Notes under the pieces: generated by a model
What the model saw: the letters and a program-made list of their open reading frames with translations, nothing else
The model's database searches: none
Told to the model about the DNA's origin: nothing
Part shown: piece by piece, positions 19,643 through 22,713 of the stretch
How the letters are laid out: every line of letters starts with the position of its first letter
Numbering within the stretch: position 1 is the stretch's first letter
DNA from: a virus
DNA: 22,979 nucleotides
Reading direction: 5' to 3' (one strand)
Virus record (IMG/VR): IMGVR_UViG_3300044841_000065
Span: 1 to 22,979 of that record
Position numbers and translations under genes: made by a program

Positions 19643-20153
19643 ACCTCTTGAGGTGAGTCAGGGTGTCCACGGCGTGTCCGAACCGCTGACGTATCTCCTC
19701 GTCCACCTCCGGAATCGTTTTCAAAACGCTCTTAGGTTTTCTTACGGATTTCAGAGAGGATTGGGTGTCAAGCTCTGACACCCCGTTACCCCCCCGTTTG
19801 ACACCCCGTGGAGGGTCATTTGACACCCCGTTCGCCTTACGGGGTGTCTGTGTGACACCCCGTGGCATCAGTAGGTCATAGACGACAGGCCGTCGGTCAA
19901 GGCGCTCGATGTAAGCGGCGGCAATGGCTTGGTTGCCGCGCGTGATCATGGATGCTTTCTCGAGCTGCTTGAGACAACGACGCACCGTGCTCTCAGAGAG
20001 ACCTGAGTCGCGGCACAGCCGCCCGATGGCGGGGAAAGCGTTCTCACCAGTTGGACTCCCGCAACTGTTCGCCAAACAAATCAGAACCAAGCGCAAATTG
20101 GGTTCGGTAACTTCTTGTTGCTCGATGGCCCATGCCACCGCTTGTATGCTCAT
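19629..20153 (-). CDS. O-like replication initiator (winged-helix, HTH_36 type)
   Basis: This 174-residue protein starts with ATG at 20153 after GGGAG at good spacing. Residues about 1-80 form a winged-helix DNA-binding domain (RLVLICLANSCGS, AFPAIGRLCRDSGLSESTVR, RCLKQLEKASMITR) of the HTH_36 group found in phage O-type and RepA-type initiators. Residues about 95-130 are a flexible Gly/Arg/Pro-rich linker encoded by the iteron array. The C-terminal 40 residues are helical (IPEVDEEIRQRFGHAVDTLT) and may contact the helicase or its loader. It probably binds the iterons within its own gene, as lambda O does. No helicase or loader gene is visible in the window. Confidence 0.75.
   Translation of the reverse strand: MSIQAVAWAIEQQEVTEPNLRLVLICLANSCGSPTGENAFPAIGRLCRDSGLSESTVRRCLKQLEKASMITRGNQAIAAAYIERLDRRPVVYDLLMPRGVTQTPRKANGVSNDPPRGVKRGGNGVSELDTQSSLKSVRKPKSVLKTIPEVDEEIRQRFGHAVDTLTHLKRFGGK
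19760..19863. repeat. Iteron array inside the initiator gene (candidate replication origin)
   Basis: TGACACCCCGT occurs exactly at 19776-19786, 19799-19809, 19821-19831 and 19853-19863. An inverted copy with one mismatch lies at 19839-19849, and a degenerate inverted copy (9 of 11) at 19760-19770. Direct-repeat spacing is 23, 22 and 32 bases. The array is flanked at 19710-19760 by the most AT-rich stretch nearby, which includes the palindrome CGTTTTCAAAACG (19716-19728). This layout matches the in-gene origin of lambda O. Confidence 0.78.
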
Positions 20154-21309: not shown

Positions 21310-21317
21310 GCGACTGA

Positions 21318-21346
21318 GTGTAACCCCACAGGTAATAGCCCCGCAA
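21318..21346 (-). promoter_or_regulatory. Leftward early promoter (pR-like) with operator
   Basis: On the minus strand TTGCGG (-35, 21346-21341), a 17-base spacer and TTACAC (-10, 21323-21318) precede cro. The spacer and -10 hold the operator TATTACCTGTGGGGTTACA (21337-21319). It matches 16 of 19 bases of the operator in the rightward promoter at 22501-22519, in the same position relative to -35 and -10. A weaker related half-site (TGTTAC at 21352) lies upstream. Confidence 0.72.
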
Positions 21347-21403
21347 GGATCTGTTACTCCTTGGCACATTTCGCCGAAAGGTAGCAGTCGTCAAAATCTA
21401 CGG

Positions 21404-21751
21404 ATGGACGATATCTATTTGATTCGGCGCAAAAATCTTGCAGCCGTATGTAGGGAAAAGGTCGGTGGAAACCAGTCTGAGCTCGCCCGCGCGCTAGAGA
21501 TGGTCCCTAACCTGGTGAACCGCTATCTCAAATCAAAACGAATGGGCGACGATGTTGCCCAGCTGGTGGAGAAGACCTACGGATTAGCGGCTGGGTGGAT
21601 GGATAACGTTCACCCGAGTGATCGCGAAGCGCTTGTATTGATGGCCTATCGGAATGCGAGCCAGGAAATACAGACCGCAGTCGAGCGGATACTAAATCTC
21701 CCTTTCACCCAGACCTCGACACTGAGCGGATCGAAACGTCGCTCGGCGTAA
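21404..21751 (+). CDS. Short CI-like repressor (XRE HTH, no peptidase domain)
   Basis: ATG at 21404 gives 115 residues. The helix-turn-helix spans about residues 20-50 (GNQSELARALEMVPNLVNRY, then LKSKRMGDDVAQLVEKTYGL). The C-terminal part is a short helix (LMAYRNASQEIQTAVERILN), with no S24/LexA-type autocleavage domain, so induction cannot be by classic self-cleavage. It is divergent from cro across a 94-base regulatory gap. No clear ribosome site precedes the ATG; a leaderless transcript is possible, as for lambda cI from pRM. The repressor role is inferred from position and fold. Confidence 0.76.
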   Translation: MDDIYLIRRKNLAAVCREKVGGNQSELARALEMVPNLVNRYLKSKRMGDDVAQLVEKTYGLAAGWMDNVHPSDREALVLMAYRNASQEIQTAVERILNLPFTQTSTLSGSKRRSA

Positions 21752-21846
21752 TGTCAGAGTCCGACGTTTTAACGCTACTGGAGGTGCAGGTGCACAACAA
21801 TCTTGGCTGCGATGCGGGAACTGGCGAATTAACTGAAGAATTCTAG
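21751..21846 (+). CDS. 31-residue acidic ORF coupled to the repressor
   Basis: ATG at 21751 shares its A with the repressor TAA stop (TAATG). The peptide is acidic (MSESDVLTLLEVQVHNNLGC, ending ELTEEF). The one-base overlap suggests translational coupling. No similarity is recognised, and length makes chance possible. Confidence 0.4.
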   Translation: MSESDVLTLLEVQVHNNLGCDAGTGELTEEF

Positions 21847-21868
21847 GGACGTTAGGAGTTCTACCTAG

Positions 21869-22357
21869 ATGGATGTTCCCGCAATCTGCGCCTGTGGTGC
21901 CGTCTGGATTGCCTCGACGCTGTTCAAAGGCGATGAGCGAACGGCTAACACACTAACTGGCTGCAGCATAGGTCCATGCCCGAACTGTAAAGGTCAATCG
22001 CGAATCCCCGATGGGAAATACCGGCTGTTGTCGGCCGAGATTTACGACAGTGAGGATGCGAGGATTCTGGCGAATGCATTTCTACAGCTACATCAAAAAA
22101 TGGCTGCAGGCGTACCGCTAGCTGAAGTGGCGAAAGAGATTCAGGGCTCGCCGATTTTCAAAAAGATTGCCCAGTTTATGCCGACGGATCTGACGAAGCT
22201 CGGGCTGTGGGTGGCGATCCTGACTTCAGTGTTGGACCATTGCTCAGGTCCACAATCAGCACATCGCCCGTCCGTCGGTGTACACCCAGAGATCCACCAA
22301 GCTCTTCAATCAATTTCCGGCGCCCCGCCGTCCATCCCACCGAAATCCCCAAGCTGA
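21869..22357 (+). CDS. Zinc-ribbon-like accessory protein next to the repressor
   Basis: This 162-residue protein follows TAGGAG (ten bases before ATG). Cysteines at 7, 9, 32, 37 and 40 include CxC and GPCPNCKG, then RIPDGKY, a CPxC...IPDG pattern I associate with bacterial and phage proteins of unknown role. Residues about 60-100 are helical (ARILANAFLQLHQKMAAGVP, LAEVAKEIQG), and DLTKLGLWVAILTSVLD is hydrophobic. The last 45 residues are Pro/Ser-rich and may not be folded. It is downstream of the repressor in the same direction and ends before a plus-strand terminator, so it is likely co-expressed in the lysogen; an immunity or conversion role is inference. Confidence 0.6.
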   Translation: MDVPAICACGAVWIASTLFKGDERTANTLTGCSIGPCPNCKGQSRIPDGKYRLLSAEIYDSEDARILANAFLQLHQKMAAGVPLAEVAKEIQGSPIFKKIAQFMPTDLTKLGLWVAILTSVLDHCSGPQSAHRPSVGVHPEIHQALQSISGAPPSIPPKSPS

Positions 22358-22400
22358 TCGTAACCAGGGTCCAAGAAAGCCCCTGCCACTCGATTTGCAT
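22176..22400 (-). CDS. Candidate 74-residue membrane protein antisense to the repressor-linked gene
   Basis: ATG at 22400 has a strong ribosome site (GGGAGAATCAG). The product has a hydrophobic N-terminal stretch (WTLVTISLGISVGWTAG) and then a positive patch (RRKLIEELGGSLGVHRRTGD, VLIVDLSNG). It overlaps the end of the plus-strand gene by 182 bases, so at most one of the overlapping ends may be fully coding. No minus-strand promoter is convincing. Confidence 0.42.
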   Translation of the reverse strand: MQIEWQGLSWTLVTISLGISVGWTAGRRKLIEELGGSLGVHRRTGDVLIVDLSNGPTLKSGSPPTARASSDPSA

Positions 22401-22423
22401 CTGATTCTCCCGATATAGACAGC

Positions 22424-22457
22424 GGCGAGGCTCGAAAGGGTCTCGCCGTTTTGCTTT
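22424..22457 (+). terminator. Rho-independent terminator after the repressor unit
   Basis: GGCGAGGCTC and GGGTCTCGCC form a 10-bp stem (two G-U pairs) with a GAAA tetraloop, followed by GTTTTGCTTT. It should end plus-strand transcripts from the repressor side before the rightward early promoter. On the minus strand there is no T-run. Confidence 0.8.
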
Positions 22458-22474
22458 GTGCACCATAGCACAAA
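22455..22474. promoter_or_regulatory. 20-bp perfect palindrome TTTGTGC-N6-GCACAAA
   Basis: TTTGTGC (22455-22461) and GCACAAA (22468-22474) form perfect 7-bp arms around ACCATA, two bases upstream of the distal operator copy of the rightward promoter. It differs from that operator. It has the size of a dimeric regulator site, and the regulator is unknown. Confidence 0.5.
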
Positions 22475-22475
22475 C

Positions 22476-22520
22476 TATTACCCATTGGGTATTGCATTCC
22501 TATTACCTGTCCGGTTATAG
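22476..22520 (+). promoter_or_regulatory. Rightward early promoter (pL-like) with two operators
   Basis: TTGCAT (-35, 22492-22497), a 17-base spacer and TTATAG (-10, 22515-22520) precede the gene at 22561. Operator copy TATTACCTGTCCGGTTATA (22501-22519) fills the spacer and most of the -10. A second, weaker copy TATTACCCATTGGGTATTG (22476-22494) overlaps the -35. The former matches the cro promoter operator at 16 of 19 bases and the latter at 12 of 19. Confidence 0.75.
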
Positions 22521-22560
22521 TCTCTCCACGCTACGAAGCAACGGGAACCGGGAGAGAGAC

Positions 22561-22713
22561 ATGTACCAAGTCACGATCATCTGGGAAGGCGCTGAGATCG
22601 GCTACGGCGAAGGCGAGTCGCTGAACTACGCCAGGTCTGAAGCCCGCGCCAGCGTCAGTGACTTCTACAAGGTTGCTCGCAGCGAGTGGCAGTTCTCGGT
22701 GAAGCGGTCATGA
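22561..22713 (+). CDS. 50-residue hypothetical protein, first gene of rightward early operon
   Basis: ATG at 22561 follows GGGAGAGAGAC, a strong ribosome site. The peptide has a strand start (MYQVTIIWEGAEIGYGEGES) and then a helix (YARSEARASVSDFYKVARSE). It ends in an ATGA overlap with the next gene. As the first gene behind the pL-like promoter it is expected early after infection. No family is recognised. Confidence 0.65.
   Translation: MYQVTIIWEGAEIGYGEGESLNYARSEARASVSDFYKVARSEWQFSVKRS

Follow-up and report, generated by a model that had tools for sequence, protein, structure and literature searches.

Organization of the Immunity Region

The window is the whole stretch of DNA analysed here, a 22,979-nt fragment of an uncultivated temperate phage (IMG/VR record IMGVR_UViG_3300044841_000065). 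It carries a repressor gene and a divergent cro-like gene together with two predicted early promoters, PR and PL (Table 1). The repressor matches phrog_5736 (E 4e-15), and its residues 1-75 share 32% amino acid sequence identity with SPC32H Rep (5d50; phmmer E 1.2e-4). Foldseek with the AF2 model of the repressor (pLDDT 80.7) places the same 5d50 at rank 1 (E 2e-4, rmsd 1.4 over 74 columns), and the recognition segment NLVNR is common to both proteins. No match to an S24 peptidase domain was found in the 115-residue repressor. A second domain as in Rep was not found either: nothing in the window protein corresponds clearly to Rep past about residue 100.

The slot between the repressor gene and PL holds the 162-aa ORF in the window and a different 72-aa ORF in contig L001, and is empty in contigs L106 and L114. 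This suggests that it accommodates exchangeable genes, which may be expressed in the lysogen. Family searches gave no match for the 162-aa ORF or for the 50-aa ORF behind PL. The polypeptides of the 31-aa ORF read MSESDVLTLLEVQVHNN... in the window and MTDFDVLNLLETQVHNN... in L001, and a similar frame lacking an ATG start lies directly after the repressor in L106 and L114. Within the replication initiator (O-like) gene (20153-19629) there are four direct repeats of the TTTGACACCCCGT type, 16 nt long and spaced by 22-32, at 19773-19865; they resemble the iterons of lambda-type origins.

Table 1. Features of the immunity region of the window.
Feature	Position	Strand	Remarks
cro-like gene, 75 aa	21082..21309	minus	phrog_35 transcriptional repressor, E 6e-6; phrog_10248
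PR (cro promoter, predicted)	21317..21346	minus	-35 TTGCGG 21346-21341; 18-bp spacer; -10 TACACT 21322-21317
oR1	21318..21338	minus	CTATTACCTGTGGGGTTACAC; occupies PR spacer, reaches into -10
oR2 candidate	21353..21369	plus	GTTACT-CCTTG-GCACAT; degenerate in window; ATTACC half in L001 and L114
oR3 candidate	21369..21385	minus	TTTCGC-CGAAA-GGTAGC; one-base overlap with oR2
PRM candidate	21370..21403	plus	-35 TTCGCC 21370-21375; -10 CAAAAT 21392-21397
Repressor gene, 115 aa	21404..21751	plus	HTH domain 1-75; C-terminal helix 73-97
31-aa ORF	21751..21846	plus	overlaps repressor stop (TAATG); conserved in L001 (5348)
162-aa ORF	21869..22357	plus	slot between repressor and PL; paired cysteines
Intrinsic terminator	22421..22450	plus	ahead of PL; near-identical in L001
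oL2	22475..22495	plus	CTATTACCCATTGGGTATTGC; third copy, across PL -35 (22492-22497)
PL (predicted)	22492..22521	plus	-35 TTGCAT 22492-22497; 18-bp spacer; -10 TATAGT 22516-22521
oL1	22500..22520	plus	CTATTACCTGTCCGGTTATAG; occupies PL spacer, reaches into -10
50-aa ORF	22561..22713	plus	first ORF of predicted PL transcript; Shine-Dalgarno-like GGGAGAGAG upstream

A Common Operator at Both Early Promoters

PR reads TTGCGGGG-CTATTACCTGTGGGGTTACACT on the minus strand and PL reads TTGCATTC-CTATTACCTGTCCGGTTATAGT on the plus strand. A preliminary description of this DNA had proposed that the cro promoter and the promoter at 22.5 kb share a 19-bp operator. The claim holds: the 19-mers CTATTACCTGTGGGGTTAC (PR) and CTATTACCTGTCCGGTTAT (PL) are identical at 16 of 19 positions, the independent matrix described below agrees, and the further copy that it had described over the -35 of the 22.5-kb promoter is present at 22475-22495. 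The sites are real, but by its sequence the putative unit is more accurately an imperfect palindrome of 17 bp, ATTACC-N5-GGTwAT. The operators do lie between -35 and -10 of both promoters as had been stated; the spacers are however 18 bp long and the right half of the operator extends into the -10, a possible reason for its GGTTA in place of GGTAA. The -10 elements themselves had been set one base early, at TTA, and TATAGT and TACACT are better hexamers. The earlier inventory of oR1, oL1 and oL2 is correct but overlooked a weak pair, oR2 and oR3.

A search for CTATTACC-N5-GGTTATAG allowing at most three mismatches finds only the PR and PL places in the 23 kb, while shuffled sequences lead to an expectation of 0.05 matches. 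A weight matrix built from 63 sites of epsilon15-type phages only, limited to the 12 half-site (core) positions and including no window sequence, ranks the window sites at 22500, 22475 and 21318 first, second and third (15.9, 15.9 and 13.3 bits, the fourth reaching 8.1). In 60 Markov shuffles of the window, three such sites never occurred together. A matrix of all 21 positions was dropped: the A+T-rich epsilon15 spacers dominate it and one unrelated site outscored oR1.

A generic sigma-70 scan called no promoter at PR or PL because their hexamers are weak. Both are predicted promoters, supported by their conservation in relatives. PR aligns with, and is kept in, L001, L106 and L114; oR1 is kept in the same three contigs (at 4915 in L001) and in L007, oL1 in L001 (5822), L106 and L114, and the GGTA-TTG arrangement at oL2 and the PL -35 is conserved. 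When the window is aligned with L001, L106 and L114, most operator, -35 and -10 positions agree, whereas the flanks diverge.

The Interval between cro and the Repressor Gene

In eight phages of the family the start codon of cro is found 6-8 nt after the operator ends, close behind the -10. The window cro ATG has no Shine-Dalgarno upstream and sits at the expected PR transcription start, so that its mRNA is predicted to be leaderless. Leaderless cro and cI mRNAs have been demonstrated in PY54 (PMC4488713), which makes this a known kind of arrangement.

A conserved 33-bp element is found between oR1 and the repressor gene. It has the form ATTACC-N5-GCACATTTCGC-N5-GGTAAC in L001 and is degenerate in the window (21353-21385). 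The element looks like two sites, the oR2 and oR3 candidates, that overlap by one base. Their outer halves match the consensus and their inner halves, GCACAT and TTTCGC, deviate from it, yet the latter are shared by the window, L001, L106 and L114. The counterpart in epsilon15-type phages is an abutting pair of good Rep sites at -87 and -70. The centre of the oR2 candidate lies at -43 from the repressor ATG, and lambda CI activates PRM from a position near this one. The PRM candidate has weak hexamers and is conserved in L001 only; its start would coincide with the repressor ATG, and the repressor transcript may then be leaderless too, less surely than that of cro.

Phages Sharing the Arrangement

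The closest relative, L001 (the same contig as L008), has a repressor with 86% and a Cro with 87% identity to those of the window and carries all three sites at equivalent places. The same three-site arrangement is found in L106 and L114 (repressor about 46%, Cro 70-72%) and in the distant L007, whose repressor has about one third identity. A scan of DNA alone for the order oL2-TTG-oL1 retrieves 16 viral loci, ten of which code for a repressor relative (L007, L008, L106-L111, L114 and L117). Seven of these ten are new cases, given that L107 is nearly the same as L109 and that earlier searches had already turned up L007 and L008. The repressors of L110 and L111 have a longer carboxyl terminus of the S24 type. 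In the remaining loci, L104, L112 (a repetitive stretch) and L115 match the pattern with no recognisable repressor, in L105 a Cro relative accompanies the sites and no repressor was recognised, no repressor was found in L116, and the sequence of L113 ends within the locus. Conversely, L015-L017 have Cro relatives with no paired sites, and no repressor relative was detected there.

The preliminary description had seen in the region a mirrored lambda-like oL/oR pair, and had named promoters retained without the motif as the outcome that would speak against it. The opposite is found: relatives keep the motif at both promoters, together with the mirrored layout in which PR and PL share operators.

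The same sites flank rep on both sides in epsilon15-type phages, represented by thirteen non-redundant repressor sequences. In these contigs sites directly precede rep and recur about 580-850 bp past its start, and some of them are annotated in the epsilon15 record AY150271 as repressor binding sites with the consensus ATTACC-N5-GGTAAT.

Scans of genome contigs with the repressor and with Cro gave no relatives. In a terminase search, which had no positive control, L106, L114, L007, L107 and L117 showed no relatedness beyond the immunity region. Seven distant N-domains, once aligned, proved too diverse for use as a search query. Upstream of oL2 in L106 and L114, about 60 bp before oL1, there is an ATACCC-N5-GGGTA-like element that could be a third oL site. 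Arrays of ATTACC-N5-GGTAAT occur also in Firmicute-like phage contigs whose short repressors are unrelated (L005 620-689, L009 3802-3900, L013 3792-3894), possibly as convergent operators. L005 and L009-L013, having no clear repressor relative, were set aside as separate occurrences.

Operator Bases and Recognition Helices

Several phages with altered recognition helices carry a half-site with one changed base at the same two locations and with the spacing kept. The Pseudomonas phages AUS531phi, AV001 and Ostro resemble the window in having a related repressor N-domain and paired sites with a 5-bp gap, and differ from it by a longer repressor with helix PAHLSQ and by the operator TTTAGC-N5-GCTAAA. 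L122 combines helix AAQLSQ with TTTATC-N5-GATAAA, and L121 helix VAHVSQ with ATAGC-N5-GCTAT, the latter being a weaker case in which one of 200 shuffles also gave five matches. These TTAGC and TTATC variants tie the site to the DNA-binding domain of the repressor. Together with the homology to SPC32H/epsilon15 Rep, they support the earlier proposal of the short repressor as candidate ligand, and the window operator is most likely read by this protein. The covariation extends over a handful of lineages, and since Q is found in the recognition helices of TTACC (L007) as well as TTAGC phages, a simple one-residue code does not apply.

The recognition helices of Cro differ as well, with xYL in TTACC phages versus GHLW/AHLW in TTAGC phages. 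This fits a shared use of the sites by Cro, on the basis of one lineage of TTAGC phages, and Cro is a plausible second ligand of the operators. PY54 Cro binds a single operator, the one adjoining the repressor gene (PMC4488713), which calls for caution before assuming that window Cro uses all sites. Escherichia phage CharmingMan (L004 2921-2980), which has a repressor relative, carries ATTACC-N4-GGTAAT repeats beside the repressor, the gap being one base shorter.

Proposed Switch and Alternative Explanations

We favour, with a probability of roughly 0.87, an immunity region in which the repressor acts at ATTACC-N5-GGTwAT to block PR and PL, a weak oR2/oR3 pair tunes PRM, and Cro probably uses some of the same sites. 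The sequences show the sites, their conservation and their link to the DNA-binding domain of the repressor; repressor binding, promoter activity, regulation of PRM and leaderless transcripts are what we infer. In the lysogen the 115-residue repressor would be made from PRM and bind the palindrome as a dimer or higher oligomer. Bound to oR1, over the PR spacer and -10, it would shut off cro and the replication operon; bound to oL1, over the PL spacer and -10, and to oL2, over the PL -35, it would shut off the other early operon. The weaker oR2/oR3 pair probably adjusts repressor synthesis, oR2 lying about -43 from the predicted PRM start and oR3 across the PRM core. Cro, made from a leaderless mRNA starting at its AUG, would probably act on some of these sites. 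Counted against this scheme are the degeneration of oR2/oR3 in the window, the weak PRM hexamers and a repressor that lacks most of what follows the N-domain in Rep. In SPC32H, DNA binding requires the Rep tetramer, which Ant disassembles (PMC9638917).

The position of oR1 within the promoter of cro itself, and the Cro helices that differ between TTACC and TTAGC phages, could also indicate that the sites belong to Cro, with a repressor that acts elsewhere or is degenerate. We consider this improbable: epsilon15-type phages share the site and their equivalents are annotated as repressor sites, the nearest solved relative of the repressor DNA-binding domain is SPC32H Rep, and the Cro relatives of L015-L017, where no repressor relative was detected, are not accompanied by paired sites. 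A more serious possibility, to which we give about one chance in three, is a division of the sites in which the repressor binds oR1, oL1 and oL2 and Cro is confined to oR2/oR3 or to one site. It is compatible with the favoured explanation, from which it differs only in the part of Cro. It has a precedent in the single operator of PY54 Cro beside the repressor gene, and the inner halves of oR2/oR3 that are off consensus yet conserved in four phages would agree with it, though they could also be no more than weak repressor sites or PRM elements.

The occurrence of the consensus in unrelated Firmicute-like phage contigs (L005, L009-L013) could mean that the palindromes are sites of a host regulator recruited by the phage; in repressor-related phages, however, they lie to either side of the repressor gene and vary with its DNA-binding domain, making such recruitment highly unlikely. 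Resemblance of the two promoters by chance, or by promoter consensus alone, is next to negligible. The shared TTGC and TTA are indeed partly promoter-like, but the expectation of 0.05 matches in 23 kb, the outcome of the independent matrix and the conserved motif amid diverging flanks in relatives all argue against it.

Comparison with Known Systems and Significance

The switch put forward here, with repressor at both early promoters, resembles lambda in its layout: the repressor and cro genes diverge, a second early promoter lies distally, and PL and PR contain the same operator. Lambda has operators in the spacers of both early promoters, a second one over the PL -35 and a repressor-side site near -43 of PRM. 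The window differs from lambda by the operator sequence, by two oL sites seen rather than three, by a cro mRNA predicted to be leaderless and by a repressor devoid of the S24 self-cleavage domain (SOS induction). It recalls the primary immunity region of the telomere phages PY54 and N15 in its predicted leaderless cro and, less surely, repressor transcripts, such transcripts having been demonstrated in PY54; their operators and repressor type are different, and PY54 Cro acts at a single site.

The operator and the repressor type are already known from epsilon15 and SPC32H (Uetakevirus; 5d50, 5d4z), whose Rep has the same N-terminal HTH with NLVNR and the operator ATTACC-N5-GGTAAT. Sites likewise lie on either side of the repressor gene, including the abutting pair beside rep in epsilon15-type phages. 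What the window adds is a minimal repressor of 115 aa, without the second domain of the Rep proteins (about 195-199 aa). SPC32H/epsilon15 Rep is switched off by an antirepressor; a search with Bro-N of six records that are fragments or of uncertain completeness gave no match to a Bro-N antirepressor.

The analysis provides a specific candidate operator for the short repressor of an uncultivated phage and links it to a repressor of solved structure. At both early promoters the operator keeps its place over -35, spacer and -10 although the repressor carboxyl termini are quite different, and the TTACC, TTAGC and TTATC series with the matching helices is a natural data set on how specificity changes while the switch is kept. 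We tentatively propose, at somewhat less than even odds, a large repressor family with one N-domain and interchangeable C-termini (almost none, Rep-type or S24), in which the TTAnC-N5-GnTAA geometry would be fixed over PL and PR, base 4 would be set jointly by the recognition helices of repressor and Cro, and the 115-aa form would repress without a tetramer.
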